Origin: a virus
IMG/VR virus record: IMGVR_UViG_3300020171_000085
Location: 1-34,675 of that record
Length of the DNA stretch: 34,675 nt
Direction: 5' to 3' (one strand)
Shown here: positions 6,857-33,594 of the stretch, piece by piece
Layout of the letters: every line of letters begins with the position of its first letter
How positions within the stretch are numbered: position 1 is the first letter of the stretch
Program-made: the position numbers and the translations under genes
Notes under the pieces: generated by a model
Seen by the model: the letters and a program-made list of their open reading frames with translations, nothing else
Database searches by the model: none
What the model was told of the DNA's origin: nothing

Positions 6857-7046
6857 ATTGTACTGTTACGCAGGGTTTCTGTGAAAATATTCCCCATTCC
6901 TTATTAAAAAAGACTAATACAAACCCTTGTTTATCCTTTTCTAGGAATCATCAGGAAATACTTCTTTAACAGCTGAACTTTGGTACCGCTTTAAGCAGAA
7001 GCACGCTGAGGTATTTATCCAGTATCGAGTTTTGTAACAGTACAAT
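6857..7046 (-). ncRNA. Closed multi-helix intergenic RNA domain
   Basis: A perfect 13-base inverted repeat, ATTGTACTGTTAC (6857-6869) with GTAACAGTACAAT (7034-7046), closes a 190-base gene-free segment between the 510-residue gene and PolB. On the minus strand the 3' arm is followed by TTTTTATTTT, so the element could end transcription. A second nested helix pairs AAGGGTTT with AAACCCT, and there is an inner hairpin around AGCGTGCTTCTGCTT. This is far larger than an ordinary terminator. It could be a small RNA with its own terminator, or a leader controlling the polymerase. Confidence 0.6.
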
Positions 7047-7053
7047 TTTGTTA

Positions 7054-8586
7054 TTACTTAACCAATTTACGTCTAGCAAAGTTAAATACTTTGCCAAAAC
7101 TATCTCGTTTTGTAACAAAATAGGTTTCATATATTGATTCTATTTTAAATTCATTATAGAGTTTCTTCCATAATGGTTCTTCACTTCTTTTTGTTGTACC
7201 AAGTTGTTTAGACAATGTCTTAACAATTGATAATAATGGTTTACTATCTTTTGGTTTTGGGGGTCCAGCTTCCATTACTGCTTTTAAATTCTGCATTTTT
7301 TTGGAAGGTATTTGCAGAACCTTTATTGTTTTTCTTTTTACAGGAACATCCCTGGTAATAGTAATCCATTCCTCTACATTTTCGATGAATTTCTTACGTT
7401 TAATAGGTTTATCATCCTTATCAAGGAAAGGTACTGTTTCAATAACAATTCCATCTTGCTTTATTTCCCAAACAATAGGTATGTATTCATAATGTGGTAT
7501 TAATTTTTTGACTTTAAAAGTCTCTTGTGCTATAAGAGATGAATCTTTTTCATCAATAGTTTCTGTAACTATTGTTTGAAGTCTATTGTAAGGACTATTA
7601 GGATTACCACGTATTTTAGTTCCCCTTCTTTCTTGACGTTTTTTGTCCTTGTGTTTTAGTAATTGTTCTTCATAATTACCTTCGGACATATCTTTACGTT
7701 TTTCAAATTTCTGTTTCTGTTGTACTTTGTATTCTTCTTTCGGTACAAAAGTCCAACCATTTTTAATAAATTTACCAGTATAGTATTGAGCAACACGTAT
7801 GATGTTCCCATTCTTTGGGTCTTTAATACAAACCATTTTTTGTTGGTCGGGTGCATTATTAGTTCTTGGTGTACTAATTGGACGTAAATCTTTTCTTTTT
7901 CTTATACGTTTTTTAACGAATTTTGTTTCATTAAAGGGTGGTAAAGAATCTATCCCAAATTCCTTAGAATAGAGGACATCTCCTTTTTTTAGATCTTCTA
8001 TATTTCCAGTATAAACACCCTCATAGTATTTATAAAGATCATTAGTAGCTTCAGTGTTATTATCTAAATCTAATAAATATCTCCAATCAGATTTAGGTAA
8101 ACTAAAATTAAATTTTTCATTGAACCATTGTTGATATTCATAATTACCGGGTGTTAAATTATATTGATTAGTATACAAATGTCGTGAGTCACTCCACTTA
8201 ATATAAACTTCATGTTGATCATTAGGAGATTTTGGTAAAACAACCACTTTTCTTTTATTTTCAAATACAAATTGTAATGGTACCTCCTTAAGTTGTTCTT
8301 TTAATTCACTGGTTTTCATTTCTTTTCTAGCTCGTATTTCATTTCTTTGCATGTGTTCTTTTATGATTGTTAAATTCATATGGGGTTCTAATGGACTGTT
8401 GACTGTTGCTTTCCTCCATTGCTGATGAGTTATACAATAACCACCATTTTTTAGTGGATTGCGAATTGAAAACTGCACGTATTCGTATGCAAAACCAGGT
8501 GTTGTTAGCATTTCCAATGAAGGATTGATAAACCTATTATAGTCTATGATACGTGCCATTCTCAATAAACCATATCTTTCAAGCAT
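7054..8586 (-). CDS. Large basic protein of unknown function
   Basis: 510 residues, not recognised. It is unusually rich in Lys/Arg, notably around residues 225-245 (KKRIRKRKDLR) and 295-330. Proline-rich stretches (residues ~445-460) and several short beta-rich segments are visible. No nucleotidase, helicase or membrane motif is seen. The start at 8586 is the first ATG; a second in-frame ATG nine codons later (MARIIDYNRF) is equally possible. It lies upstream of the polymerase, separated from it only by the closed RNA domain at 6857-7046. The charge suggests a nucleic-acid-binding role, which is inference. Confidence 0.5.
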   Translation of the reverse strand: MLERYGLLRMARIIDYNRFINPSLEMLTTPGFAYEYVQFSIRNPLKNGGYCITHQQWRKATVNSPLEPHMNLTIIKEHMQRNEIRARKEMKTSELKEQLKEVPLQFVFENKRKVVVLPKSPNDQHEVYIKWSDSRHLYTNQYNLTPGNYEYQQWFNEKFNFSLPKSDWRYLLDLDNNTEATNDLYKYYEGVYTGNIEDLKKGDVLYSKEFGIDSLPPFNETKFVKKRIRKRKDLRPISTPRTNNAPDQQKMVCIKDPKNGNIIRVAQYYTGKFIKNGWTFVPKEEYKVQQKQKFEKRKDMSEGNYEEQLLKHKDKKRQERRGTKIRGNPNSPYNRLQTIVTETIDEKDSSLIAQETFKVKKLIPHYEYIPIVWEIKQDGIVIETVPFLDKDDKPIKRKKFIENVEEWITITRDVPVKRKTIKVLQIPSKKMQNLKAVMEAGPPKPKDSKPLLSIVKTLSKQLGTTKRSEEPLWKKLYNEFKIESIYETYFVTKRDSFGKVFNFARRKLVK

Positions 8587-8587
8587 G

Positions 8588-8818
8588 TTATGATCGTATT
8601 ACAAGATATTGTTCTGTAGGAGCATCTTTTGTCCATCCAATTTTTGAATGTGTTAAAATAGCTTCAAGTTCTTCAACTCTACGTGAAAGTTTTGTTTTTC
8701 TTGTATAATAGAAACCTCCGTCCATATGAGTAAAACCCCTTTCAAGTTCTTTAAGTATTGCGCTAGTTTCAATCAATTCTATTATTACTTTTGTTATTGC
8801 ATTTTCTAAATTGTTCAT
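8588..8818 (-). CDS. Small helical protein of unknown function
   Basis: The ATG at 8818 is preferred (76 residues); the frame opens at a TTG at 8848, which is less likely. The sequence is helical, beginning MNNLENAITKVIIELIE, then a short Gly/aromatic turn (MDGGFYYTRK) and a second helix. No known motif. Its stop lies one base from the ATG of the 510-residue gene, so the pair is co-translated. Confidence 0.5.
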   Translation of the reverse strand: MNNLENAITKVIIELIETSAILKELERGFTHMDGGFYYTRKTKLSRRVEELEAILTHSKIGWTKDAPTEQYLVIRS

Positions 8819-8841
8819 TTTATTGATTTTAATTGTTGATA

Positions 8842-9834
8842 TTACCAATCAGTTAATATGATTGGGTTATTTAAGGTAAAACCTTTCTTTTTGTCCAATA
8901 ACTGGAACTGCATCTTAGGCACATCTGGTTCAAAACCATAAGCTCTAGCATACGAATTGTAGCCAATAACAGAGCCATTTACACGTACTTTGTTTAATAC
9001 AATATATTGATGCCAATGTGCAATCCATGACATATCTGTTTTAACAACAACATTTTCTCTTAATATCCACTTTTTAAGCGGTACTTCAAGTCCACCTATT
9101 CCACCTTGATAGTTGAAATGGTCACCATGAGAAAACTTATTCATATAACCAAATAATGGTAAATATATAAATTCAGACTCTGATATAATGAATTTAACAT
9201 TTTCATATCCTCCTATATTATCGAATATTTGTTTCATGTTATTATACATTAACCATTCATATGAATTTTTATATCCAGTAGAATGTCTTTTTCTTTTTGT
9301 AGTTCTACCATGATTACCTGGAACACATGGTATTATTATTTGTTTAAGGTCACCATATTCTGATAAAAATCTAATTCCAGAAATAAGTAATTCCTGTATT
9401 ACTAAACTAGCTTCTGTTGGAGTTAATTGATTTATTTCTTCAAGTTCTTCATGTATGTAACCTGAAATAAAATCTCCAAGTAAGCCTACTACTAAAACGT
9501 CTACATTATAGCCAGCTTTACGAGATTGATTAATCATATAGATTAATCGTCTAAAATAACGAGTAACTCTTTCTGCTGCAATAGTTAAATTATATTCATT
9601 TAAATTACTTACAACCGATTTAATCACTGGCTCTTCTATATGAACATCACTTATTATTGATATTGCAATAGCCTCATTTTTATGTTTATAGTTAGGAGTT
9701 ATTTTGAATTTGTCTAATGAATCAAGATTTTCAATATTGATACCAGTTAGGAAATCCTGTCTTGTTTTTAATTCTTCGTTTGATTTACGAAGTATAGTGT
9801 TTTGTCTTTTTAATTCCTTTTGATTATTTTTCAT
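8842..9834 (-). CDS. Metallophosphoesterase (calcineurin-like)
   Basis: 330 residues. A Lys/Glu-rich coiled N-terminus (1-30) is followed by a metallophosphoesterase core: SDVHIE (D63, H65), GLLGDF (metal-bridging Asp), PGNHGR (Asn/His), HGDHFNY, and AHWHQY in place of GHTH. All metal-ligand positions are present, so the enzyme should be active. Known relatives include SbcD/Mre11-type nucleases and phage DNA phosphodiesterases. The absence of a helicase or SbcC-like partner leaves nuclease versus phosphatase open. It overlaps the upstream gene by four bases (ATGA-type) and sits among replication genes, suggesting DNA processing or nucleotide turnover. Confidence 0.8.
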   Translation of the reverse strand: MKNNQKELKRQNTILRKSNEELKTRQDFLTGINIENLDSLDKFKITPNYKHKNEAIAISIISDVHIEEPVIKSVVSNLNEYNLTIAAERVTRYFRRLIYMINQSRKAGYNVDVLVVGLLGDFISGYIHEELEEINQLTPTEASLVIQELLISGIRFLSEYGDLKQIIIPCVPGNHGRTTKRKRHSTGYKNSYEWLMYNNMKQIFDNIGGYENVKFIISESEFIYLPLFGYMNKFSHGDHFNYQGGIGGLEVPLKKWILRENVVVKTDMSWIAHWHQYIVLNKVRVNGSVIGYNSYARAYGFEPDVPKMQFQLLDKKKGFTLNNPIILTDW

Positions 9835-10289
9835 TCATTTCTTAATTTAATTTCATCTTTAAATGCTTGGAGATAATCACCACGAATAGCCATTTCACCA
9901 TTTCCCACATCACGTATAATTGCTTTAATGTGGTTAGTAGTCATATCTTTAATAAGAATTCTCTCTACTTCAGGTAATGGATTCATATTTTCGTCGTAAT
10001 GTCTACTCCATAACATAAATTCTCTAAATGGTATGCCTTGATCTTCTAGTATATCATTTTCTTCATCGTTCCAAATTCTTAGTGAATTTGAGATACATCC
10101 GATGTTGATTAACATTTGACCAAAACGTAAATCTGGATCTTCTTTCCAATAATAAATTATTTTAGGTCTGAGAGTTCCTTTCATATTTAGAATTTTATTA
10201 AATAATTTTACATCAATATTCCAACGTTCTGCTAATGTTTTCCAATTAACTTTACTTAAAAATATTGGTATTCTTTCTTTAGGTCTCAT
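9831..10289 (-). CDS. Conserved phage protein of unknown function
   Basis: 152 residues. Contains LRFGQMLINIGC followed by a Trp/Glu-rich segment and IPFREFMLWSRHYDEN, MNPLPEVERILIKDM and a DHI-like TTNHIKAIIRD. I recall this pattern from uncharacterised phage proteins but know no function. The start at 10289 is supported by a strong GGAGG located six to ten bases upstream, overlapping the end of the preceding gene. Four-base overlap with the phosphoesterase gene. Likely cytoplasmic; no membrane segment. Confidence 0.6.
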   Translation of the reverse strand: MRPKERIPIFLSKVNWKTLAERWNIDVKLFNKILNMKGTLRPKIIYYWKEDPDLRFGQMLINIGCISNSLRIWNDEENDILEDQGIPFREFMLWSRHYDENMNPLPEVERILIKDMTTNHIKAIIRDVGNGEMAIRGDYLQAFKDEIKLRNE

Positions 10290-10929
10290 TTTTGGCCTCC
10301 TTTTCTAAACTTTCATTTGATTTCCAACTGGAATCTGTTTCATTTATTAAGTTTTCTTTTTTAGCACATTCTAAACATCTAGTATAAATCCAACCTCGTG
10401 TATGTCCTACATTTTTCATAGAACCACATATTTCACATACTTGATGTGACAATGATTCTACAAAGTGTATAACAGCATATTGGTTTTCAGATGCACTTTC
10501 TACGTAAAAACACAATCCACCAAATTTCTCTTTAACCTGGCTAGCTACAATTTGAGGATATCTGTTAGATTCAATGTAGATAAAATTTAGTTCGCTTCTC
10601 CATTTACTAATATTACTTCTTAAATAACTTCTAATATTACCTAATAAGTTAAAGGATTTTTTTTCAAAATCGTATCTTCCAGGAATCTTATCAATTATTT
10701 TTGATATAAATGGAATGAAATATCGCAACTTTTTGTTTTCAATAACGTAATCTTTGTTGTTGTGGTCTATATCCCATTGTAAATTACTACATAATTTATC
10801 TACAATAGTATACCAACCTTCAGAAATATCAAATCCCCAATACATACAAGTAGTTCTCATATCTCCAAATCTATTTGCAAATATCTTAGGATATTTTGCA
10901 CATAGTTTTTTATCAAGTTCTTCTGTCAT
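10279..10929 (-). CDS. Conserved phage protein with C-terminal zinc ribbon
   Basis: 216 residues. The N-terminus (KYPKIFANRFGDM, GFDISEGWYTIVDKL) and the C-terminus (VKEKFGGLCFYV, then CEICG and a later CLEC) match a widespread uncharacterised phage protein family. Its members begin with KYPKIF, contain GWY, and end with KEKFGGLRFY plus a zinc ribbon. The copy here is longer than usual, with an extra basic helical region around residues 70-120. The zinc ribbon (two CxxC pairs) suggests nucleic-acid or protein binding. One-base to eleven-base overlaps link it to its neighbours. Confidence 0.65.
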   Translation of the reverse strand: MTEELDKKLCAKYPKIFANRFGDMRTTCMYWGFDISEGWYTIVDKLCSNLQWDIDHNNKDYVIENKKLRYFIPFISKIIDKIPGRYDFEKKSFNLLGNIRSYLRSNISKWRSELNFIYIESNRYPQIVASQVKEKFGGLCFYVESASENQYAVIHFVESLSHQVCEICGSMKNVGHTRGWIYTRCLECAKKENLINETDSSWKSNESLEKEAKNET

Positions 10930-11330
10930 TATTGTTTTTTTAATTTGTAAATAGGTTTTTTTCTTTTAATACCAAAAAACCATGTTGTTTTTCTTTCTAT
11001 GGTGTATAAGCTTTTTGGTATATTCATTTCATACAACATAGTAGGTATATCCATAAAATACCAATCAGATAAATGACCTGGTTTTGAAATTATTATTTTA
11101 AATGGTAATAATTCCATAGCTATTAAAACTTGTGGTAATGTTAGATGCATATTATTACCCCATGTTTTTTTTATGGCCTTAGTGTTTTCTCGTATATTAG
11201 ATACTATAGATCTTACTGACGTAAAATTATGACCTATACCCCAAATTTGGGTAATTAGTTTCCACCAACTAACATACTTAAAAAATAAATTAATTTCTAA
11301 TTCTTTTTTACTTTTGTAAAGTTTAAACAT
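10929..11330 (-). CDS. Unknown basic protein
   Basis: The ATG at 11330 is chosen (133 residues). The frame extends to a TTG at 11372, which lies inside the closing helix of an RNA domain and is less likely. The protein is aromatic- and Lys-rich, with a segment WGIGHNFTSVRSI and a basic tail (GIKRKKPIYKLKKQ). Not recognised. Its stop overlaps the ATG of the downstream zinc-ribbon gene. Confidence 0.5.
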   Translation of the reverse strand: MFKLYKSKKELEINLFFKYVSWWKLITQIWGIGHNFTSVRSIVSNIRENTKAIKKTWGNNMHLTLPQVLIAMELLPFKIIISKPGHLSDWYFMDIPTMLYEMNIPKSLYTIERKTTWFFGIKRKKPIYKLKKQ

Positions 11331-11364
11331 TTTGATTAGTTTATAGTTAATAATTAAATAAATA

Positions 11365-11438
11365 AAACCCAAGTAGTATGGTTAATTTACCTGTATGGCA
11401 AAGCCAAGGTATTTTCTCAGAGCCTCCTACTTAGGTTT
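11365..11438 (-). terminator. Closed RNA domain with terminator-like 3' end
   Basis: AAACCCAAGTAG (11365-11376) pairs with CTACTTAGGTTT (11427-11438) over 12 positions with one G-U. The inner part contains ACCT/AGGT and GGC/GCC pairings. On the minus strand the 3' arm runs into TTTTATTTATTT. It lies between the tRNA-like element downstream of the RNR gene and the next gene, so it probably ends the RNR transcript. Confidence 0.6.
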
Positions 11439-11471
11439 TTGCTCTTCACGAATATCACGATGAGCAGTAGC

Positions 11472-11552
11472 GGTGTGGGTGAGGCTCGAACTCACTCTCT
11501 CCCGAGCGTTCCGACAAAATGCTTCTGCATTCGTCATTCAATCATCCACACC
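11472..11552 (-). tRNA. tRNA, possibly tRNA-Asp(GTC), atypical
   Basis: Begins five bases after the RNR stop codon. The acceptor GGTGTGG/CCACACC has seven perfect pairs and the T-arm GTGAG-TTCGAGC-CTCAC is perfect. The best anticodon arm is GCATT-TTGTCGG-AACGC (four of five pairs), anticodon GTC. The D-arm is weak (ATT/AAT, no GG in its loop), and about nine bases more than a class I tRNA are present. A competing hairpin AATGC-AGAA-GCATT overlaps the D/anticodon region. No CCA is encoded. The isotype is tentative. Confidence 0.6.
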
Positions 11553-11557
11553 ATGTA

Positions 11558-13540
11558 TTATGTTATTTCACATGTATCATTACTGCAATACATTTCAGGT
11601 TTAGAATCTTCACTTATACCATTGAATTTTAGTTCTTTTATTCGTTTTGCTAATTTTTTGTATTCATCCTTTGTTATTTCTTCATATGGCATTTGTGGAT
11701 ATGTAGCCTTTTCAAGTTTAGGTAAGAAACTAATTCCTTTTAATTTGTATTGGAAATAATCTAATACATGTTTTATTTGTTCACGTTCTTTTTTATTAAA
11801 TGTAATAGTACAAGATACTTGATTATCAGCCCAATGTTCTTGTAAAAATGAAGCTAGAGATATTTGTTCCCACATACTAACCTCATTATTAGTACGTACT
11901 CCTTCTATGGCTACTGGTATTTCAACTACTGATGTATTTTCTATATCATTTACATCTGGTTCAATTATATAACCAGCTTCTTCCAAATAAGGAAGTAGAT
12001 CTGAATTAGATGATACTCTTATTCTTCTAATATAGTAATTACTTTCAGGATAATGCATACCTGGTGTTACACCTGGTAATAACGATATTGTACCAGAAGG
12101 TTTGATACTTGTTGTTTTAATACTTTTGGGTACTGCAAACCATTCACTATATATATTATCATAGTATTGTATAATTTGGTAGCCTTCTTCAAGCCATTGT
12201 CTAAATGTTTCTATTCCTTTAGTATCAATAAATTGTGCTATACCACTTATTGATGTACCTATACGTCTGTTTCTTAACTGTACTCTATTAGTTTCAACCC
12301 AATCAGTTGTACCTAATGTAACAGTCTTAGCATACATATATGCAAACTTCAATGTTCTTAAGAAATCTTCTTTATCTATATGTCTTGTGGGAAAACATTC
12401 TACTAGACAACACATTTCATATGATTCAAGACTTTGTTCAAGACAAGGATTACCTCCTGTTACTCTAAAATCTTTATTATTTATACTATCTTTAAGACGT
12501 CCATAAGCTTTCATATTAGATAACCAAGCATATCCTGGTTCTCCATTCATTGCTGTTTGTTCAGCAATTTTAGTATAGTCTTGTCCTATTTCAGCAAACA
12601 CACTATTATTTGAAGTCCATCCATGAGGTGCCCTTCTTGTGTTAGAACCATTAAATTTGTATTCTATTGGATCCCAATGATAGTCTTTTAATTTAAGAAA
12701 TTCATCACTATTAGGATTACCAAATACAATTTGTGCAGATCGTCTTACATTACCTGCAACTACACAAACTCCTATTAAATTCATTATGTCAACTATATCT
12801 GTTTCAGTGATGAGTTGACCAATATGTTTAGAGAGTATTTCTTCAATTTTAATATGTAGTTTCATCAGTGGTTCAGGACCTGCAGATTTGCCCCCAAAGG
12901 TCTTAATTAAGGTCCCGGCAGGTCTAATTAATGAGTAGTCAAACTTAGGGACTGAAAAACCCTTCAGAAAGGCATTTAGAGCGTGTTTAAGCGACTCTGT
13001 CCATCCTTCCCTAGTGTCTGGTATCTGGAAGAAAAAATTATCCTCTAAGGGTTTTAAAATAGTTAATTTATTAGCTCCTTTAGTATCGAATCCAATTCCT
13101 ACTCCTAACATGGACATATCCATCATGAATTCAAATGGTTTACTAAAGTCTTTGTCTAGTGTTTCAGTAGATACAAAAGCACAATTATTGAGTGCCGCAA
13201 ATAAACCACGCTCATTTATTACTGATGTACCCATAGCCCATAAACCCCTACCTGGTGGTAGAAATTTCATATTAAACATACGGTCATACATTTCTTCAGC
13301 AGAGATGTGTGCTTGTTCTTCATCCCAACCTAGACCGTTTTTTGTAATGTGATTTTTTTGTACTGAATATGTTCCTTCAACAACTCTTCTAATAGTTTCA
13401 AACCATCTTTCATTAGTACCATCTTCTTTAATTCTAGAATAAGTTCTTAAGTACACAATGTTACCTAAACCATTAAAACCAAAATCAGGTTTAATAGTAC
13501 TATATTTTTCAATAAATTTATCTTTTAATGTAAACTCCAT
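11558..13540 (-). CDS. nrdJ: Class II (adenosylcobalamin-dependent) ribonucleoside-triphosphate reductase
   Basis: 660 residues from the ATG at 13540 (MEFTLKDKF). An upstream ATG at 13567 lies within a hairpin and adds an unlikely hydrophobic leader. Family landmarks: LGNIVYLRTYSRIKEDG at the N-terminus, NNCAFVS with the first redox Cys, GGNPCLEQ with the radical-site Cys and catalytic Glu, the WADNQVSCTITF segment near the C-terminus, and a terminal CSNDTCE redox pair. This is the monomeric B12-dependent form that reduces NTPs to dNTPs, aerobically or anaerobically. It needs host cobalamin. Length is slightly below the ~700-740 usual for the family. A tRNA gene follows five bases downstream. 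Confidence 0.9.
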   Translation of the reverse strand: MEFTLKDKFIEKYSTIKPDFGFNGLGNIVYLRTYSRIKEDGTNERWFETIRRVVEGTYSVQKNHITKNGLGWDEEQAHISAEEMYDRMFNMKFLPPGRGLWAMGTSVINERGLFAALNNCAFVSTETLDKDFSKPFEFMMDMSMLGVGIGFDTKGANKLTILKPLEDNFFFQIPDTREGWTESLKHALNAFLKGFSVPKFDYSLIRPAGTLIKTFGGKSAGPEPLMKLHIKIEEILSKHIGQLITETDIVDIMNLIGVCVVAGNVRRSAQIVFGNPNSDEFLKLKDYHWDPIEYKFNGSNTRRAPHGWTSNNSVFAEIGQDYTKIAEQTAMNGEPGYAWLSNMKAYGRLKDSINNKDFRVTGGNPCLEQSLESYEMCCLVECFPTRHIDKEDFLRTLKFAYMYAKTVTLGTTDWVETNRVQLRNRRIGTSISGIAQFIDTKGIETFRQWLEEGYQIIQYYDNIYSEWFAVPKSIKTTSIKPSGTISLLPGVTPGMHYPESNYYIRRIRVSSNSDLLPYLEEAGYIIEPDVNDIENTSVVEIPVAIEGVRTNNEVSMWEQISLASFLQEHWADNQVSCTITFNKKEREQIKHVLDYFQYKLKGISFLPKLEKATYPQMPYEEITKDEYKKLAKRIKELKFNGISEDSKPEMYCSNDTCEIT

Positions 13541-13556
13541 GTATATATATATAAAA

Positions 13557-13613
13557 GGGAGTCTCATAAGACTTCTCGTACGCTATGCGACCGACTATTC
13601 AAATAAGACTCCC
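13557..13613 (-). terminator. Hairpin domain between coiled-coil gene and RNR gene
   Basis: GGGAGTCT (13557-13564) pairs with AGACTCCC (13606-13613), extendable by AT pairs. On the minus strand it is followed by TTTTATATATATA and then the RNR start at 13540. The sequence ATAAGACT occurs in both arms. The loop is about 40 bases with a GC-rich inner part. It may end the upstream transcript or act as a leader element for the reductase. Confidence 0.55.
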
Positions 13614-13623
13614 GATTAATTAA

Positions 13624-14079
13624 TTATAGTAGATTCAGATCTTCATCTAAATATACTGTTACTTTCTTTTTGGAGTTAAAAGATGATAGTTTGTTTTCAA
13701 ATTGTTTAATTTCTCCACTGAGTTGATTAAATGCAGATTTTGCATCTTCTTTCTTTATTTGAGCTAGTTCAAGATCTTTAGTCTTACGACCAAATGTTTT
13801 AAGTAACTTGTCATAAAAGAATTTCTTTGTTTTCAGGTTTGATAAAAAATAAATGTTGTGATTATTGGTTTTACCCTCAAACTTACTTTTATTAGCTTCC
13901 TGAATTATTTCTTTGAAGATGATCAATTGAGTTTCAAGTTTACCAACACGATCTAATAAAACATCGGTTTGTTTTTCTGTAAAATTGTATTTAACAATAT
14001 CATCATATGATGATGTAATTGATCTTTCAACATCTGCTTTTAATTTTAATACTGTCTCTAACAGTAATTTTTTCTTCAT
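13624..14079 (-). CDS. Coiled-coil protein of unknown function
   Basis: 151 residues from the ATG at 14079 (the frame opens two codons earlier at a TTG). Almost entirely helical with heptad-like spacing and many Lys/Glu. Predicted coiled coil over residues ~5-60 and ~85-140, with a short Asn/His break between (NNHNIYFLSN). It ends with a beta-like VTVYLDEDLNLL. No enzyme motif. It lies between the exported lysozyme-like gene and the RNR gene. A structural or scaffold-like role is possible but not shown. Confidence 0.55.
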   Translation of the reverse strand: MKKKLLLETVLKLKADVERSITSSYDDIVKYNFTEKQTDVLLDRVGKLETQLIIFKEIIQEANKSKFEGKTNNHNIYFLSNLKTKKFFYDKLLKTFGRKTKDLELAQIKKEDAKSAFNQLSGEIKQFENKLSSFNSKKKVTVYLDEDLNLL

Positions 14080-14147
14080 ATTCAAAATTGATTTTTAGAA
14101 ATTGTTTTAATATTTGTACCAAGCAAATTTCTTATTTCAATAATCAA

Positions 14148-14555
14148 TTAAAGATGTTTCTTAACTTTATTCCAATATAATATTGTCATAGGTCCAGAAC
14201 CATTCCAGTTCTTTGCTATTTTTTCAAAATTATATGGACCTATTAAATCAGCATAATACAGAAATATTTTTTCTGCTATATGATAATTAAACATGTCGTT
14301 AAGTTTGTAATTATTATTTGTTCTTTTATTGTAATCTTTTAACCTAATTGGGCGTATCTGAAAATATCCAGTAGCCTTTTCAATTGAGTTATATGCCAAT
14401 GTATCATGACTAGATTCTATTGTACCCGTTGCATGTATTAATTTAACATAGGGTTTAATTGGTTCAGGTTGCTCTATACGAAAGAATTTTTCTGCAGGAG
14501 CATATGATAAAAGGCTATAAAAAACAAACAAGAACATTAATAATGCTCTTTTCAT
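14148..14555 (-). CDS. Exported lytic-transglycosylase-like protein (SLT fold)
   Basis: 135 residues. An N-terminal signal peptide (hydrophobic residues 4-18, then APA) is followed by a small lysozyme-like domain: HATGTIESSHD with the likely catalytic Glu, ATGYFQIRPIRLKDYN (the GxxQIxP pattern) and a late AKNWNGSGP (the AxxWNxG pattern). These are hallmarks of the SLT/goose-lysozyme group, which cleaves peptidoglycan. In a phage it would act in the periplasm at lysis or, if virion-borne, at entry. It is short for the family, so it may be a minimal catalytic domain. The next gene upstream (15361 to 14774) ends before a tRNA, and a closed RNA domain abuts this start. Confidence 0.75.
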   Translation of the reverse strand: MKRALLMFLFVFYSLLSYAPAEKFFRIEQPEPIKPYVKLIHATGTIESSHDTLAYNSIEKATGYFQIRPIRLKDYNKRTNNNYKLNDMFNYHIAEKIFLYYADLIGPYNFEKIAKNWNGSGPMTILYWNKVKKHL

Positions 14556-14560
14556 AAATT

Positions 14561-14647
14561 AAGATTTGGTTAAACATTGTGAAGAATTTCACTTCACTGC
14601 ATGAGAACGTTATACGTATGTAACCTAAAAAAGTTACACCAAACCTT
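14561..14647 (-). ncRNA. Closed multi-hairpin RNA leader
   Basis: AAGATTTGGT (14561-14570) pairs with ACCAAACCTT (14638-14647), ten positions with one G-U. Inside are GTGAA/TTCAC (near 14580-14593) and GTAAC/GTTAC (near 14620-14636) hairpins. The closing helix ends five bases before the start codon of the lytic-transglycosylase-like gene, so it could control its translation or mark an RNA processing site. Confidence 0.55.
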
Positions 14648-14671
14648 GATTATTTTTGATTATTGGTTAGA

Positions 14672-14742
14672 AGTCTAGCCAGGATTCGAACCTGAGTGTT
14701 CCCATTTAAAAGGTGAAGCTTTAACCACTAAGCTACTAGACT
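14672..14742 (-). tRNA. tRNA, probably Lys(TTT), anticodon ambiguous
   Basis: Acceptor AGTCTAG/CTAGACT, position 8-9 TA, D-arm GCTT-AGTGGTTA-AAGC and T-arm TCAGG-TTCGAAT-CCTGG are all good. Only 71 bases. The anticodon loop can be set as CTTTTAA (anticodon TTT, Lys; stem with two G-U and one mismatch) or as TTTTAAA (anticodon TTA, an ochre-reading tRNA; stem with two mismatches). The Lys reading is favoured because TAA is used as a normal stop throughout. Outside the acceptor stem, TTGGTTAG and CTAACCAA flank the gene and can pair. No CCA encoded. Confidence 0.75.
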
Positions 14743-14773
14743 AACCAATTCTGTACGTTGAATCGTTGTGTTA

Positions 14774-15361
14774 TTATGCATATTGTAGACCTGGTATGTT
14801 TATAATGAAACGTGAAGCTTCATATAACATTTTTGGTCTTCTTAATTGAATTTTTGATATTTTTTCAATTAGTCCGTCAACAGAACCTCTTTTACTCCTT
14901 CTTAGAAGTTTTACAACTCCTGGTATAAAATAAGAACTTATTGGGGAGAACACAGGAAGATATCTGTTAGTTTGATCTTCCAAAATTGCAGATTCCACAT
15001 TAGTAAATAATGTAGGTACTTCCCGATAAAGTACATTGTATTTGTTCCAGATATAGTCTACTATATCTACAGTTTTCTTATAAGCTTTTAATTGCAGTAT
15101 TACATACAAATCATTATTGAACATGCGTGCATAAGTATCTCCATACCCTTTATGTTTACAGTTTTCTGCAAGCCTATTAGGAAGAACGTCTATAAATAGA
15201 TCTGTCACATTTAAAATAGTCTTCTTGAAAGACCACCATTTTGTTTTTAGTATGACCAATCCATGTTTAGTTACGTGTACGTAATTGTATTCAGATAATA
15301 GGTCTTTTACCATTTGTTTTACCCTTCTTTTAAGAAGAGGGGTCACTTTAATAATATTCAT
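14774..15361 (-). CDS. Unknown basic protein
   Basis: 195 residues, not recognised. Starts MNIIKVTPLLKRRVKQMVKD; Lys/Arg-rich, with aromatic clusters, and a central segment NNDLYVILQLKAYKKTVD. A Pro/Tyr-rich patch (FSPISSYFIPGVVKLL) precedes a basic C-terminal region. There is no signal peptide or clear membrane span. It overlaps the upstream membrane-protein gene by four bases, so the two are co-translated and may act together. A tRNA follows its stop by about 30 bases. Confidence 0.5.
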   Translation of the reverse strand: MNIIKVTPLLKRRVKQMVKDLLSEYNYVHVTKHGLVILKTKWWSFKKTILNVTDLFIDVLPNRLAENCKHKGYGDTYARMFNNDLYVILQLKAYKKTVDIVDYIWNKYNVLYREVPTLFTNVESAILEDQTNRYLPVFSPISSYFIPGVVKLLRRSKRGSVDGLIEKISKIQLRRPKMLYEASRFIINIPGLQYA

Positions 15362-15951
15362 CCAGGCGGTGAATTAATAATTGTTTGTATAATATTGTAA
15401 TTTGGACTAGTTAGTATCATCCCCATTGATTTATAAGCTAACCAAAAGAGAGTTAGTACCATCACTGCAGTAATGGTTTTAATATACCATTCTTTTGTAC
15501 TAATCGCTTTTGCGTGATGAGTCATACTTGATAATCCAAACATTACAAAAAGAATATACATTGTAAAAAGAGTGTAAAATATCATATCATATACTCTTTT
15601 CTTATGTATAATTTTATTAATTTCTAAACTGGATAATCCAGTTTGTTGTGTTATGCGATCCATAATGGATACGCACCTCCTTTCTTGCAGCGACAAATTG
15701 CTTTTAATAGCATCTGATACACTTTCTATAGCGTTTGCAAATTTAAGGTTAGTTTCTGCATTTTCTTTAATAACAGAAGATATGATGTCAGTAGTTCTAT
15801 TGTCGTTAACAATAATCTGTGCTGGATCAAACATAACTGTTACTGTACTGCTATCTTTACCATAAACTTCTTTTTGAGTAAAGTCTGGAGTAAACGACAT
15901 TAATGTCGATACTAATAGCGGGGCAATTAATATAACAAATAATCTTGTCAT
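15358..15951 (-). CDS. Membrane protein with signal sequence and C-terminal membrane segments
   Basis: 197 residues. Residues 4-19 form a signal peptide or signal anchor. A soluble, probably periplasmic, Ser/Asn-rich helical region follows (~20-118). Then come hydrophobic segments at ~122-140 (MIFYTLFTMYILFVMF) and ~160-180 (TITAVMVLTLFWLAY). The central domain has heptad-like spacing, consistent with a coiled coil. Family not recognised. Location in the inner envelope and linkage to the exported lysozyme-like protein 0.8 kb downstream suggest an envelope or lysis role (inference). Confidence 0.6.
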   Translation of the reverse strand: MTRLFVILIAPLLVSTLMSFTPDFTQKEVYGKDSSTVTVMFDPAQIIVNDNRTTDIISSVIKENAETNLKFANAIESVSDAIKSNLSLQERRCVSIMDRITQQTGLSSLEINKIIHKKRVYDMIFYTLFTMYILFVMFGLSSMTHHAKAISTKEWYIKTITAVMVLTLFWLAYKSMGMILTSPNYNIIQTIINSPPG

Positions 15952-15952
15952 T

Positions 15953-16075
15953 CTATTTAGTATTAAGCCTATGTTTGTTAGGCATTTTGCTTCTACGAAT
16001 AGCCAAAGACCATTGCTTCCTAGATTTTATAGTACCTTGGGTACCAAATCTCTTTTCAGCTTGGGCTTTAGTCAT
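15953..16075 (-). CDS. Small basic protein (40 residues)
   Basis: ATG at 16075, TAG at 15953. The peptide starts MTKAQAEKRFGTQGTIKSR and is strongly basic with Arg/Lys throughout (about 12 of 40). It fills the gap between the 162- and 197-residue genes exactly, with two bases on each side, so it is probably real. Not recognised. A nucleic-acid-binding role is possible. Confidence 0.5.
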   Translation of the reverse strand: MTKAQAEKRFGTQGTIKSRKQWSLAIRRSKMPNKHRLNTK

Positions 16076-16077
16076 GA

Positions 16078-16566
16078 TTAAAAACGGTCGTTATCAATCT
16101 TATCTTTGAGAAAGATTGTTATTTTAGCTTGTTCTTCTTCTTTTTTCATTGAACGTTCAAGTTCAACTTCAACAATAACACGACAAACTGCTCTTGCTTC
16201 TTCTTGTCTGGTGAAATAGCATTCTTCAAGTTTACTAACCCTACCTTGTTCTTTAGGAATATCAATAGTACCATTGACAGTTATAAAACCTGGTTTTGCT
16301 CTACCACTTAAAGTATCAACAAGAATAGGAAGAATAGCCGGGTATAGTGATGAATCAGGATTAGTTTTACTTTCTTTGTCATTAACTGAATTAAGGACAA
16401 TACCAAATATCTGATCTTCAATAGATAAGTCTTTTGGGTTAACTACTGGGATTTCCAGTGCTATTTCTTGTACTTTAGATGCATTACTTGCAGCTGCCCT
16501 GATTGTTTTGAGGTCTATTTTTGATACCTCGTCACTACTTACTAAAAATTGTTCTTTTTGTTTCAT
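16078..16566 (-). CDS. Unknown protein
   Basis: 162 residues, not recognised. Acidic and alanine/valine-rich N-terminal half, with a segment YPAILPILVDTLSGRAKPGFITVNGTIDIP that looks like a beta-rich core. The C-terminal half contains a Glu/Lys-rich helix (VELERSMKKEEEQAK) and ends with a short beta pattern. A four-base overlap with the 186-residue gene places it in that operon. No signal peptide. Confidence 0.5.
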   Translation of the reverse strand: MKQKEQFLVSSDEVSKIDLKTIRAAASNASKVQEIALEIPVVNPKDLSIEDQIFGIVLNSVNDKESKTNPDSSLYPAILPILVDTLSGRAKPGFITVNGTIDIPKEQGRVSKLEECYFTRQEEARAVCRVIVEVELERSMKKEEEQAKITIFLKDKIDNDRF

Positions 16567-17123
16567 TTTGATTTGTTTTGATTACTTATTAATATAAAAT
16601 TCTCTTTATGCTGACGCAAGAATTTGATTAGAGAATGATCTTCTACTTGAGATTTCATTAAAGGAATTTTCTTCATGATATCCTCGAAGTCGTATTCCAA
16701 TTCAAGCCATATGTTTGTTAAGGGATGATCTTTCTTACCCCATAAACAAAACGGCAATCGTTCTTTTTTTTTAGTCCAATTTTTCTTATACGGTCTTAAA
16801 TAAACAACAGTTTCTTTCTTTTTAAGATTAATCCCAATGCCGCCAAATTTCTTTTTGTGTAATACAAGGGGAATATGTATTTTAAACAAATTAAATAATA
16901 ACCATATAAAAATAGGATAAGATACTCTTTCGTAGACCAATTTTTCCCCACCTACTCTTGCATCACTAAGTATGTGTTTGCCTTTTATTTTAGGCACATC
17001 CTTTTTGATAAGGGTATACACACTTTTTATTTGTGTCATGATACATAGTTTTGGTGAGTAATATAGTATTGAAGCATAGGTCTGATCCTTGAGTGCATAG
17101 TTCTTAATTGAACCGTAAACCAT
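16563..17123 (-). CDS. Unknown basic protein
   Basis: 186 residues, not recognised. Very Lys-rich, with a hydrophobic central stretch (FIWLLFNLFKIHIPLVL near residues 72-88) that could be a membrane-associated helix. A Trp/Lys segment (KNWTKKKERLPFCLWGKK) follows. Start at 17123. It is the first gene after the long structured RNA region (17124-18808), so its mRNA may share a leader with it. Confidence 0.45.
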   Translation of the reverse strand: MVYGSIKNYALKDQTYASILYYSPKLCIMTQIKSVYTLIKKDVPKIKGKHILSDARVGGEKLVYERVSYPIFIWLLFNLFKIHIPLVLHKKKFGGIGINLKKKETVVYLRPYKKNWTKKKERLPFCLWGKKDHPLTNIWLELEYDFEDIMKKIPLMKSQVEDHSLIKFLRQHKENFILISNQNKSK

Positions 17124-18808
17124 TTGGATTGAAAAAATCTGATAAACTCTTAATGCTTTGGTTTATATAGAATAACTCTTGCAACTATTAAGTACACATA
17201 AGATCATCTAAGCCAGGAAGATCAGACCTTGATAGCTTCGTTTTTTTGCGGTTGAATTAGTCCAACCTGCTGAAATAACTTTTATTATATTGTGTTGCAA
17301 CTTTTATCCAGTTGCTTTTGAGGAGATTCCCTCATTCAGTTTTATTACTTGAATAAACTTAAAATACTTTCTATACTTCTCATAATTGTGCTATTTCCAG
17401 GTTTCACACTGGAGTTTACTCCACTTCTCTCATATATGATATGTTTGACATTTCAGATAACTTAGAGAGGGCGGGCATCGAAGGCTAATGAGACCTAGTA
17501 CATCTTTTCAACCTTTCACATCTTTTTATGATAATTATATTCCGTACATAGTATTATAACTCTATACTATTCGAGTTTGTCTATACCTACACCAACACCA
17601 TTTGCATGGTTAGCCCATCAAATGGACTTTATATGATGCATTATAAAATCTGTCATGTTAGTTCTTTGAAGACATCACGGTCTTTAACTATTGCGGGTTT
17701 GATTCATTGTTATTCAATCTCTGTCATATTGAGTGGATCCAACATTCGCTCAATTAAGATTTGAAGTTGGTTCAATAAGGACACATTTATAATAATGTTA
17801 GTAAAGAGCACGTATTATCCCTAATCTACATTTAGATGGTGAGATTCGAACTCACGAAGCCAAATGGCATCCCAATTACGATGGGTCTTCTTTGACCTTC
17901 TCAGTACATACATGCCAATGCTATGTCTGATTCTCTTAGAAGCTACGATCTAATTTTTGCATTATTATAAATTTGGCAAAAATAACAATAATGAATTATT
18001 TCTGTATTTCATGGTTATTCCTGAGGTAAGTTTGTGGCTTACTTACGCCCCAACAAGATGTTTGTTGTTTTACGTCAATTAACGTGGCCAGGGGTTAGGA
18101 TCCCACTTTAACCGATACTTTCCGTAGGTATCAACAGCTTGATTATTTTACTGTACGCTAATCATACGCCACCCCACTTTCATTCTGCTTGTGTTAGCTC
18201 AGTTGCCTGTGCATAGGGGTTCTAGAATTTTCGTTTCCTCACTACTGCATGCCCCATAGACATACACCTCCACATACGATGTCATCCTCTTTCGACGAAT
18301 CTTGACCTCCCACATAGTATTGTAGCACAATTCTAGCATTTCTTCGATGGCCTTAATAGACTAATTATTTATTATCCAGGGAATCCCACCCTTTACGCCA
18401 TTCATTTTGTTATTGTAAAACGACCATTACCTAGTCCTGCGACTTAATGGGTTTTTAGAACACCAATCGGTACGGTGTAACAGGTTTGCATACCAGACAT
18501 GTCCTCTGTTAACATTTTGGAATATGTTGGATCTTTGCATCTGACCTCAGTCTACTGTCTATTGACATTCTAACCTAAAGCGAGTACACTCACACCCTGT
18601 GAGGTAATAAACTTTATTAAAACCTTTATAGTTAAGAGAGAATGAATAACTTTGCGATATAGTCACGGTATCGCGTTTGTCACCATAGCTGAATTTGCCT
18701 ACCAGTTCTCAAAAACAACCATTCCGTGTTTAAGATTAAGGTCAATTTAGATAACCCAAAAGGTTTAGCCTAAAGGCTTAATTGCAATTCCCAGCAATGT
18801 ACAAAACG
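17124..18808 (-). ncRNA. Long gene-free, hairpin-dense region (candidate large structured RNA)
   Basis: About 1.7 kb without a credible open frame on either strand. Hairpins read directly include GGTTG/CAACC (near 17251-17268), GCAAC/GTTGC (17297-17315), TGAGG/CCTCA (17319-17334), ACCAT-TTGC-ATGGT (17597-17610), CATCA/TGATG, AAGAC/GTCTT, ATTGAG/CTCAAT (17728-17754), GTAAG/CTTAC (near 18027-18042), GGTTA/TAACC, GATAC/GTATC, CTCAC-ACCCT-GTGAG (18590-18604), GCGATA/TATCGC, and ATTGC/GCAAT (18781-18798). A tRNA-Tyr lies inside. Base composition is less AT-rich than the coding regions. Large ornate RNAs such as GOLLD and ROOL occur in phages next to tRNAs. I cannot confirm a match to either consensus by eye. 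It could equally be several separate RNAs. Confidence 0.6.
17832..17953 (-). tRNA. tRNA-Tyr(GTA) with a ~37-base insertion near the D-arm
   Basis: T-arm GTGAG-TTCGAAT-CTCAC, long variable arm GCC-ATTT-GGC, and anticodon arm CCCA-TCGTAAT-TGGG with anticodon GTA match bacterial tRNA-Tyr. The D-loop GAAGGTCAAA and following GAAG are also Tyr-like. The 3' acceptor CATCTAA finds its partner (TTAGATC, six of seven pairs) only at 17947-17953. The D-arm 5' half CTTC is likewise displaced, so about 37 extra bases lie between CTTCT and TGAGAAGG. Without the insertion hypothesis the local acceptor pairs at only three positions. It may be interrupted or non-functional. Confidence 0.55.
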
Positions 18809-21520: not shown

Positions 21521-21626
21521 AACCCCCTGTTCCTTAAATCGAAGACTTAAGTTATATACACTTTCACCACAGTAATTAGTGGATAAGCTAAAAACTTAGT
21601 GTCAATGAATAATACGACAGGGGGTT
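21521..21626 (-). ncRNA. Closed cloverleaf-like RNA domain with terminator end
   Basis: AACCCCCTGT (21521-21530) and ACAGGGGGTT (21617-21626) form a perfect ten-pair helix around 86 bases. On the minus strand the 3' arm runs into TTTTTATAATTT, a good intrinsic-terminator end. Inside are hairpins AAG/CTT, CCAC/GTGG (21567-21582) and CTTAAG/TTTAAG (21533-21551), so the fold resembles a four-way junction. It lies 11 bases after the stop of the 985-residue gene. It may be a terminator carrying a small stable RNA. Confidence 0.65.
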
Positions 21627-28564: not shown

Positions 28565-28578
28565 GTTGTTAGTATAAT

Positions 28579-28614: not shown

Positions 28615-28642
28615 ACCTTCATTCTAGCAAAATGAATTTTTT

Positions 28643-29470: not shown

Positions 29471-29674
29471 TTCTTTCTTTTTTTGTGTGTATTATTAAAT
29501 TAGTCAATTTTAAATATCTGTGCAAAGATAATTAGTGGAGTAGGTCGGTTACGGATCGCCATATTTATCCAGTGATCTATCAGATCAGTAAAGATAATGC
29601 ATTTACAAAATTATGCTACACTCCTAGCCAAATATTCACTTCTTTTCATATAATATGGATTTAGGTGAATTTTA

Positions 29675-29751
29675 TGGCACGGGGGGAGAGACTCGAACTC
29701 CCGACTTTTGGTTTTGGAAACCAATGCTCTAGCCAACTGAGCTACACCCGT
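29675..29751 (-). tRNA. tRNA-Trp(CCA)
   Basis: Canonical and complete. Acceptor ACGGGTG/CCCCCGT (six of seven pairs), D-arm GCTC-AGTTGGCTA-GAGC, anticodon arm TTGGT-TTCCAAA-ACCAA with anticodon CCA, T-arm GGGAG-TTCGAGT-CTCTC, discriminator G and an encoded 3' CCA. 77 bases. Preceded on the minus strand by a strong closed hairpin (29758-29850). Confidence 0.92.
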
Positions 29752-29757
29752 ATTTTA

Positions 29758-29850
29758 AAAGACTCTTGATACGTTATGAATGTTACATGCATCAAAATTA
29801 TGAAATTCCCAAATTAGTGATTATACAAAGAACGCGTATCAAGAGTCTTT
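29758..29850 (-). ncRNA. Closed RNA domain with 16-pair helix upstream of tRNA-Trp
   Basis: AAAGACTCTTGATACG (29758-29773) and CGTATCAAGAGTCTTT (29835-29850) are perfect complements. On the minus strand the 3' arm ends in TTTT seven bases before tRNA-Trp. It could be a terminator or a processing signal that frees the tRNA. Confidence 0.6.
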
Positions 29851-29858
29851 ATTGGAAA

Positions 29859-29951
29859 GAAACTCTCTTCTCATCTTTTTCACATCCATTGAAGGAAATG
29901 AATGGTTCAATTAGCAATAGCCAGTGGACCAAAGCTGGGTAAGAGAGTTTC
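29859..29951 (-). ncRNA. Closed RNA domain 2 of tandem set
   Basis: GAAACTCTCTT (29859-29869) pairs perfectly with AAGAGAGTTTC (29941-29951). An inner CCATT/AATGG hairpin is visible. Length 93 bases, tRNA-sized, but no T-loop (TTCGA) sequence, so it is not a normal tRNA. Confidence 0.5.
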
Positions 29952-29958
29952 AGTGGGG

Positions 29959-30022
29959 TACAATGCCAAGTGGCCTTTCCTATTTCGCAAGTCCGGATAT
30001 AGGCTTAGGCATAGGCATTGTA
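29959..30022 (-). ncRNA. Closed RNA domain 3 of tandem set
   Basis: TACAATGCC (29959-29967) pairs perfectly with GGCATTGTA (30014-30022) around a GC-richer loop with a CCTA/TAGG inner pairing. Confidence 0.45.
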
Positions 30023-30027
30023 TGGGG

Positions 30028-30096
30028 TAACCCTAACATTGACAGTGTTGGTACGTATACTCGTGGCATATGTAGTCTAACTGTGTGATAGGGTTA
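30028..30096 (-). ncRNA. Closed RNA domain 4 of tandem set
   Basis: TAACCCTA (30028-30035) pairs perfectly with TAGGGTTA (30089-30096), with an inner AACA/TGTT hairpin. It lies two bases from the tRNA-Arg 3' end. Confidence 0.45.
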
Positions 30097-30097
30097 T

Positions 30098-30180
30098 TGG
30101 TAAGGATAGTGGATTCGAACCACTGACCTACAGCTTAGAAGGCTGTTGCTCCAGTCCTTTATATTCTGAGCTAATCCTTA
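30098..30180 (-). tRNA. tRNA-Arg(TCT)
   Basis: Acceptor TAAGGAT/ATCCTTA (seven pairs), D-stem GCTC/GAGC with an unusually long 16-base D-loop, anticodon arm ACAGC-CTTCTAA-GCTGT with anticodon TCT, T-arm AGTGG-TTCGAAT-CCACT. CCA directly follows the seven-pair acceptor stem, leaving no separate discriminator base unless the outer pair opens. TCT reads AGA/AGG, common in AT-rich phage genes and rarer in many hosts. Confidence 0.88.
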
Positions 30181-30829
30181 CTTTTAAAATCATTCATTAT
30201 ATCTCCGGTCTTTGCCATGGTGTTACACATTACACCAAAACCTGTTTATAATAGATTGTGTGACTATTTTATCAGGGGCATATCTTGTGTTGTCCCAAGA
30301 TGTGTTTACTGCGTTATAGTAGTTGCAGTTTACTGTCATGTATGTATCGCCCATTGACTGGCGAATAGGTTATAAGCCTATGCTGTTGTATTTAAGAGAT
30401 TATTATGAATGATATTTTATTTATTATCACTCGTATCAATAGAGTGATTGCACAATTAGTTATAATCCGGATCCAGTTCAGAGTGGGCTATTATGCTGTC
30501 CATTATGGGCGCTTCTCATTCTGGTTATTGATAACTATACGACAACATGTTTCTATGTTGAAGGCTAAATAGCATTATTCTGCTAATGCAAACTGATATT
30601 TAGCTGCCTATGTTATTCGCCGCCCTGATGTCCTTTGATAGAGGATTAGCTGTTTGTTCTGCAGTGCGAATACATAATATCATCACCGAATTCGCTTAAA
30701 GCTAGTAGAGGTGTGAGTATTAAAACATTCACTTATAATAGTTATTATTGATATACATTACTGTAACTTTTAGCATATTAGTAAGTGGTAATCAACTGCC
30801 TGTTATATAAGGGAATGTTGGAGTATAGG

Positions 30830-31840: not shown

Positions 31841-31866
31841 TTTGCTAATTATTTAATGTTATTTAT

Positions 31867-32363: not shown

Positions 32364-32366
32364 TTG

Positions 32367-32711
32367 CTAGTTATTTAAATATTGTGGATATGTTAACCTT
32401 AAGTGTTTAGCTCTTGTTTTATAAGCATTGAATAGTTTAAGAGGTGTGTTTGCTGATTGTATCCTATCGTATGATAGTTCGTTGGGATGTTCGCGACAAC
32501 CCATGGGGTATGGGTAAATACAGTTGTAACATTTTGTCCGGTCTGATGCTTGTGCTATGCATAATGTACAAGTATTGCCATTACCGAATCCGGTTAGTCT
32601 GGTTGCTGCATTATATCCAGGTAACCATTTATCCTTTATCTCCTGTAAGGTAATTGTTTCATATCTTTTAACAAGAGCTTTGAATTCTTTGATATTGATT
32701 GGTTTGTTCAT
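32367..32711 (-). CDS. Zinc-binding small protein
   Basis: 114 residues. Central cluster CTLC, then CYNC and a later GC (five Cys over ~28 residues, plus His) suggests a zinc site. It is flanked by helical ends. Similar single-domain Cys-rich proteins are frequent in phage early regions, but I know no function for this one. Confidence 0.5.
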   Translation of the reverse strand: MNKPINIKEFKALVKRYETITLQEIKDKWLPGYNAATRLTGFGNGNTCTLCIAQASDRTKCYNCIYPYPMGCREHPNELSYDRIQSANTPLKLFNAYKTRAKHLRLTYPQYLNN

Positions 32712-32716
32712 TGTAG

Positions 32717-32896
32717 TTAGTATAAGGTTAATTTAAAGTATTTACGTTTAGTTCTCCCGTTATACCAGAGTATGAGTTCATCATCTATACCTGATTTGTA
32801 TATGTAATCGAGTCTTGGTCTCCATAATATTTCAATTAGGTAGGCAAGTAGTACTATTGCTAGGACTATTACTATTGTTAGGTTGATTGTTGTCAT
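32717..32896 (-). CDS. Small single-span membrane protein
   Basis: 59 residues from the ATG at 32896, chosen for its ATGA overlap with the upstream stop (an ATG at 32926 is also open). One hydrophobic span at residues 5-23, then a charged cytoplasmic or periplasmic tail with RTKRKY. Not recognised. Confidence 0.5.
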   Translation of the reverse strand: MTTINLTIVIVLAIVLLAYLIEILWRPRLDYIYKSGIDDELILWYNGRTKRKYFKLTLY

Positions 32897-33147
32897 GATA
32901 GTAATTTGATTTGTTGTTTCAACCATTTAATCCTTGGTGGTTTATTACCAATTGGCCATGAGTATATTTTACCTTTGTTTGGCCTGTGTTTAGTAATGTA
33001 ACGATCGAGTTTATCACATTCTCTGTCATTGATTAGGTTATATTTTTGCATTTCAGTTATTAAATGGCATAAGCCAGTATAATAGGTTGATTCATTGAGT
33101 GTTGCTAACGTAATAGTTAATAACACTTTGTTAGTTCTTATTGGCAT
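32893..33147 (-). CDS. Small basic protein, first gene of operon
   Basis: 84 residues, basic, beta-rich start (VLLTITLATLNESTYYTGL) and a Lys/Pro-rich end (HRPNKGKIYSWPIGNKPPRIKW). Not recognised. It opens the overlapping set running to 30830 and lies ~30 bases after a terminator-like hairpin (33179-33232). Confidence 0.45.
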   Translation of the reverse strand: MPIRTNKVLLTITLATLNESTYYTGLCHLITEMQKYNLINDRECDKLDRYITKHRPNKGKIYSWPIGNKPPRIKWLKQQIKLLS

Positions 33148-33178
33148 ATTTTTGATTGTTATTGGTTACAATGTAAAA

Positions 33179-33232
33179 GAATGAGCTGTACTATCAGTTA
33201 CCCAATCAAAGGTTTCAAGCCTTGGCTCATTC
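33179..33232 (-). terminator. Terminator-like closed hairpin
   Basis: GAATGAGC (33179-33186) and GCTCATTC (33225-33232) pair perfectly; an inner AAGG/CCTT hairpin is visible. On the minus strand it ends in TTTTACATTG. It would close the short unit coding the 55-residue protein. Confidence 0.55.
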
Positions 33233-33303
33233 AATTGTGTAGTCAGTCCTTCCGGTTACTTGCATCTGGACTACTTACTTAGTGTAAGTAATCTATGTCT
33301 TTG

Positions 33304-33471
33304 TTAGTTTTCAGGAAACCATTCATTAATGGTTGTATCATTTAAGTATTGTGAATGATTTATTGCTTCTGCATATCTGATAAATGGTTGATTATCAGAT
33401 GTTACGAATAATGAAGTACATTGTTGTCCTAAGTCTGATTGAAAGACTTTATTTATTTCATCTTGTGTCAT
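33304..33471 (-). CDS. Small protein (55 residues)
   Basis: ATG at 33471, TAA at 33304. The peptide starts MTQDEINKVFQSDL, contains FIRYAEAINHS and ends TTINEWFPEN, with sensible composition for a folded helical protein. The IRYAEA and EWFPE pattern is one I associate with small uncharacterised phage proteins. It is flanked by closed RNA domains on both sides, so it seems to be a one-gene unit. Confidence 0.55.
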   Translation of the reverse strand: MTQDEINKVFQSDLGQQCTSLFVTSDNQPFIRYAEAINHSQYLNDTTINEWFPEN

Positions 33472-33498
33472 GATAGTGTATGTATTAGTATTGATTAT

Positions 33499-33594
33499 AA
33501 TATAACCAATGGTGTAAAATCAAGTTTCAACTCATATGTGTCAATAATGTGCGACTGATGCAGTTCTTGAAGTGTTGCTTACATTGGTTATATT
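33499..33594 (-). ncRNA. Closed RNA domain
   Basis: AATATAACCAATG (33499-33511) and CATTGGTTATATT (33582-33594) are perfect 13-base complements enclosing 70 bases. It lies upstream of the 55-residue gene and downstream of the strong terminator at 33662. Its role is unknown; compare the similar closed domains elsewhere in the window. Confidence 0.55.

Follow-up and report, generated by a model that had tools for sequence, protein, structure and literature searches.

Candidate phage terminators with large RNA inserts in their loops

The window analyzed here is a 34,675-nucleotide stretch of viral DNA (IMG/VR record IMGVR_UViG_3300020171_000085, positions 1–34,675), in which nearly all genes lie on the minus strand and several gaps between genes hold a long closing stem around a large RNA insert. 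The DNA polymerase finds its best matches among uncultured crAss-like phages, at ∼30–34% identity, and the window also encodes a DnaB-like helicase, an exonuclease, a ribonucleotide reductase and an AAA_24 protein, which we call Sak4-like, following the annotation given to this Pfam family in phi14:2. No named phage matched the 24,999 bases of window DNA that were compared. Relatives were taken from IMG/VR at 3 polymerase loci, 80 reductase loci, 80 loci of a polymerase alignment and 76 Sak4-like loci; one of them, G002, is 101 kb long and carries phage terminase and portal genes. Same-strand gaps were scanned in the window and six relatives (7 records), using uncurated gene calls from a codon-usage script.

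A first-pass annotation of the window had listed six closed helices in separate gaps, labeled D1 to D6 here, and all six are recovered on the gene (minus) strand. Most are longer than originally given, with 16, 13, 11, 10, 10 and 14 pairs for D1 to D6 versus 13, 12, 8, 10, 10 and 13. D1 (6854–7049) closes a 164-nt insert and is followed by a U-tract and then by the start of the DNA polymerase gene at 6841. D2 (11364–11439, 50-nt insert) lies downstream of the ribonucleotide reductase gene and D3 (13557–13613, 35-nt insert) upstream of it, each with a U-tract directly after the stem. D4 (14561–14647) is closed around three hairpins and is followed by a start codon 5 nt on, with no U-tract. D5 (21521–21626) forms a three-way junction with a UUAUCC apical loop and has a U-tract, and D6 (33498–33595) encloses a 70-nt insert without one. 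The U-runs proposed for some of the domains are therefore those of D1, D2, D3 and D5. The two or three inner hairpins also proposed are predicted for D5 (two arms) and D4 (three), and several are predicted for D1; D2, D3 and D6 instead fold mainly as one interrupted inner stem.

To judge the stems individually, we compared each with 400 dinucleotide shuffles of its own gap and asked how often an equally good helix arises anywhere in the gap. The resulting chance is 0 for D1, D3 and D6, 0.0025 for D2 and 0.0075 for D5. Whole-domain folding z-scores are −3.1, −3.0, −6.0, −3.9, −5.3 and −3.2 for D1 to D6, respectively. The loops of the window elements (35–164 nt) are larger than those of normal intrinsic terminators, as the annotation had said, and fall outside the short-loop definition of this class; a standard terminator scan, which considers loops of 3–8 nt, reports none of the elements in window positions 1–20,000. 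Rfam 15 families give no match at any of the six named domains at E ≤ 5, and scans of the window and seven relatives return only tRNA at the gathering threshold.

Long-loop stems of this kind recur throughout the family. In the 7 records, stems followed by a U-tract number 24 with loops of 3–25 nt (0.7 in shuffles), 35 with loops of 26–130 nt (3.2 in shuffles) and 4 with loops of 131–250 nt (2.3 in shuffles). Control phages give 1 (0.3 shuffled) for phi14:2, 1 (0.65) for cr131_1 and 0 (0.35) for T4 in the 26–130 nt class. When no U-tract is required, the 8 nt after the stem contain on average 5.08 T for long-loop stems (n = 50), 4.53 for short-loop stems and 2.58 for helix-free leaders, and 37 of the 50 long-loop stems have at least five. 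A second test, made without selecting stems, asked whether the first and last parts of a gap pair better with one another than with swapped ends; 25 of 81 gaps of 70–260 nt are at or above the 99th percentile for swapped ends, and 29 of 41 gaps in the slot upstream of the Sak4-like gene reach the 95th. The median spacing in 66 family domains is 12 nt from stop codon to stem and 23 nt from stem to start codon. The recurrent unit is a frame consisting of the upstream stop codon, the closing stem, the U-tract and the next start codon.

This frame agrees with the idea of transcript punctuation put forward in the first-pass annotation, in that the closed domains form a recurring set in intergenic gaps, on the gene strand, and most of them run into a U-tract. 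The accompanying idea that one kind of RNA module is used repeatedly does not hold. No 7-mer is common to the 66 domains beyond the shuffled maximum, the inserts of different window slots show no mutual similarity, and neither of two class-specific covariance models (R1 and R2) finds a second strong copy in any record; a single RNA module in all gaps was rejected on these grounds. Unrelated folds, which the annotation had named as evidence against its proposal, are indeed what the stems contain; the elements have in common only their closing stem, U-tract and placement.

The search of related phages that the annotation had suggested shows that the same slots hold either short-loop terminators or stems around inserts of 30–176 nt. 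In the slot upstream of the reductase gene, a stem is present in 10 of 11 distinct gaps of near relatives, with loops of 5, 6, 10, 39, 41, 44, 45, 48, 57 and 79 nt; relatives L009, L010 and L012 have loops of 5–10 nt in the D3 slot. The polymerase-upstream slot likewise has a stem in 10 of 11 gaps, with loops of 9–164 nt, the 164-nt insert of the window comparing with 9–50 nt in relatives. Upstream of the Sak4-like gene, a stem occurs in 41 of 44 gaps, and its loops fall into two groups, 6–27 nt (10 cases) and 48–117 nt (31 cases), with none between 27 and 48 nt. The window itself has a plain, terminator-like hairpin with a 6-nt loop in this slot (1589–1621, minus strand), where many relatives have a domain of ∼100 nt. 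Loops upstream of the DNA primase gene range from 4 to 176 nt.

Several of the inserts are conserved structured RNAs (the Sak4-upstream, D5, D2 and D4 classes), others are tRNA-like and others have no detectable relative, as is the case for D6. The Sak4-upstream class has a core common to 16 aligned domains, whose ten consensus pairs are intact in 98.1% of cells and show 30 double changes. None of 500 shuffles reaches these values and no slid register comes near them, whereas the number of doubly changed pairs and the number of pair types lie within the shuffled range (81/500 and 154/500). A covariance model of this class searched against 107 sources finds it nowhere but in the Sak4-upstream slot (23 of 23 hits, most of them training domains or domains on the same contigs), which again argues against one module shared among slots. 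A collection of bacterial and archaeal genomes contains no match to the class, and a host origin was rejected for that reason.

In the D2 class, GGCTCT is present in all four phages and AACCAYAC in three of them, and both partners have changed in 7 of the 14 stem pairs, a level reached by 4 of 500 shuffles. For the D5 class, four members with the three-way junction and UUAUCC loop can be aligned, and both partners have changed in 4 of 13 pairs, a count that 12 of 500 shuffles also attain; this alignment replaced a poor one of seven D5-like sequences. Model R2, built from the D5 class, detects the four sequences on which it was trained and, weakly, one further D5-like domain (L109, E = 3.4). 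Five more domains look D5-like and are unconfirmed by R2; the placement of L014, L128, L116 and L120 with D5 was made by eye and is provisional. Two relatives have the D4 stem in the same position, both partners of one pair having changed, and conservation of D4 extends as far as the start codon in L006 and L007 and is partial in L008 and L009. As far as literature and Rfam searches show, these insert classes appear to be new.

Stem and insert vary independently of one another. We compared insert similarity (as a z-score) and arm identity for the 351 pairs formed by 27 domains of the Sak4-upstream slot. Similar inserts (z ≥ 4) are carried by arms of less than 0.6 identity in 28 pairs, and unrelated inserts (z < 2) by arms of at least 0.75 identity in 26 pairs. 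Fifteen of the latter come from six phages (L220, L221, L223, L235, L242 and L243) whose arms are 0.75–0.96 identical and whose inserts are unrelated in 15 of 15 pairs; some of the other 11 have short arms and may be due to chance.

An insert can also be found in a different slot. The D1 insert aligns over its whole length with L205:2772–2946 (115 identities in 179 columns), with a local score of 92 compared with a maximum of 50 in 500 shuffles. The L205 copy lies upstream of a primase gene, within an unrelated 11-pair stem followed by a U-tract. In a BLAST comparison of 66 inserts with relatives, D1 is the sole slot change that stands out, and its most conserved stretch occurs in IMG/VR only on the L205 contig. 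The D1 key has two matches in the bacterial and archaeal genome collection; scored with a D1 + L205 profile, one is weak over 23 nt and the other receives no score, and both were taken as chance. At the DNA level, neither D1 nor the Sak4-upstream class has a match among named phages.

The list of six elements, although all of them exist, was not complete. A further element at 186–273 (minus strand), in the gap after the gene at 282–884, has a 9-pair closing stem, a 70-nt insert with a T-arm-like GTCCGTTCGAATCGGAC and a U-tract; its chance in its own gap is p = 0.20 for the stem alone and 0.015 with the U-tract. Also missing were tandem closed elements on the minus strand at 29758–29850, 29859–29951, 29959–30022 and 30028–30096, between two tRNA genes. 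The first alone has, by eye, a similar element in a relative (G002 4279–4381). The gap containing them (29471–30829) has a tRNA-Trp, a second tRNA and at least four tandem closed elements; ARAGORN assigns the second tRNA to Cys, and by eye its anticodon looks like TCT (Arg). A helix of 9 pairs at 14662–14749 (minus strand; p = 0.13 in its gap) encloses tRNA-Lys (14670–14742).

The tRNA covariance model exceeds its gathering threshold at 14671–14742, 29678–29751 and 30100–30180. The same Rfam model does not score 186–273 or 11470–11552, the second of which ARAGORN calls a tRNA. Both belong to a set of tRNA-like pieces with a T-arm, paired ends and an odd middle that also includes 17832–17953, L235:15411–15546 and L220:2888–3034. 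In L238, the gap after a c1-like gene contains a plain hairpin and then a tRNA-like sequence interrupted by a long insertion. Finally, a gene-free gap of 1.7 kb (17124–18808) adjoins an AMP-binding-domain gene, and an equivalent gap of 1.6–2.0 kb lies at the same place in four relatives, making it a candidate large noncoding RNA. The 2-kb gap without annotated genes at 38379–40417 of the crAss-like phage cr131_1 (L266) might correspond to the long gap of the window.

The interpretation we favor, and consider probable, is that these elements, which lie between co-directional genes, are intrinsic terminators or attenuators with RNA inserts of ∼30–176 nt accommodated in their loops. The stems, the covariation, the U-tracts, the equivalence of slots with short-loop hairpins and the independent variation of stem and insert can be read directly from the sequences, and they suggest termination at these elements together with partial read-through. 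Transcription would most likely be ended or thinned after the upstream gene. The next gene would probably be reached by read-through, because the ∼12–40 nt that as a rule separate stem and start codon leave little room for a promoter and no excess of Bacteroidota promoters is seen in the inserts, so that the elements may thin transcription rather than end it. Promoters inside the inserts find no support, since the Bacteroidota −7 motif occurs once in the 66 domains compared with 3.0 times in shuffles. An insert that folds locally could draw both arms together, allowing the stem to form despite the long loop. The conserved inserts may regulate the adjoining genes or be stable RNAs themselves. 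We propose more tentatively, as a possibility we rate somewhat below even, that terminator loops in this phage group act as docks for portable RNA modules, with one class in different docks and stems and one dock with unrelated modules, and that the phages thereby have a repertoire of interchangeable structured RNAs, produced as 3′ portions of terminated transcripts and in several cases belonging to new classes.

A number of observations weigh against interpreting the elements as terminators. D4 and D6 have no U-tract, the D4 stem alone is not significant in its own gap (0.10), and 7 of the 50 long-loop stems have fewer than four T in the next 8 nt. Across all 27 reductase loci, the ends of the reductase-downstream gap reach the 95th percentile of swapped ends in only 4. 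Staphylococcus phage K (L268) has four stems in the 26–130 nt class, compared with 0.75 in shuffles, and its four terminator-like stems with loops of 26–60 nt compare with 0.45 expected; long-loop terminators are thus not unique to the present phage group. When folded alone, the inserts exceed shuffles only to a modest degree (mean z = −0.86, n = 66, with 12 below −2), so that many of them may be fast-evolving spacer.

The main rival explanation is cleavage of the closing helices by RNase III or a related activity, as at the intergenic sites of phage T7, which would give each mRNA defined ends and release the inserts as small RNAs. The position of the stems between stop and start codons, the helix around tRNA-Lys and the tandem elements without U-tracts at 29959–30096 and in L234 would all suit processing, which is most plausible for closed elements that lack U-tracts. 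Processing sites need no U-tract, however, and the tract is as strong after long loops as after short ones; nor would they need the classic short-loop hairpin and U-tract found in the same slots of relatives. We consider processing unlikely. Idle inserts in a compact genome whose terminator loops tolerate insertions would account for six phages that keep the stem while the inserts vary freely, and for the many inserts that fold no better than shuffles, but not for conserved cores with compensatory changes in the Sak4-upstream, D2 and D5 classes, and such neutral expansion seems very improbable.

Alternatively, a conserved insert could sense a ligand or protein and decide whether the terminator forms, as in the HMP-PP riboswitch. 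This architecture matches a published aptamer embedded in a terminator (PMC6478431), and the core of the Sak4-upstream class is kept across its 16 aligned domains, always upstream of the Sak4-like gene. Many relatives, however, have a plain hairpin in the same slot, so regulation of this kind can be dispensed with; the D1 insert precedes two different genes, and the Rfam scans of the window and relatives found no riboswitch. Riboswitch-like attenuation is, in our judgment, quite unlikely. If the elements terminate transcription as we favor, then a structured RNA of 100–170 nt can be accommodated in the loop of an intrinsic terminator and escape a standard scan, and such loops would be sites of RNA-module gain, loss and exchange in phages. 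The conserved inserts are candidates for new phage RNA classes beside replication genes (polymerase, primase, reductase and the Sak4-like protein).

The RNase III processing signals of phage T7 are irregular hairpins between a stop codon and the next gene, repeated along the operon; the present elements share this repeated placement and differ in having a U-tract and in exchanging with short-loop terminators, features not known from the T7 signals. Intrinsic (Rho-independent) terminators have the same perfect stem, gene-strand U-tract and intergenic position, and occupy the same slots in relatives in short-loop form, but the loops here are 26–176 nt long and have structure of their own. The closest described architecture is that of the HMP-PP (thiS motif) riboswitch, a conserved RNA embedded in the loop and stem of an intrinsic terminator, for which a construct with the full terminator stem is described as 66 nt long and the aptamer as competing with the terminator (PMC6478431). 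The present inserts are larger, belong to several unrelated classes and are compatible with a closed stem; we do not claim membership. Palindromic candidate structured RNAs from the human microbiome are also intergenic, with many predicted to be terminators and some near phage genes, and slot-wise insert exchange is not among the features described in the available text of that report (PMC8040213). The literature searched, which left out most subscription papers, contained nothing directly relevant to the same phenomenon in phages. The terminator-type frame is already known, and the exchange of inserts between terminator loops would be new as far as literature searches show.

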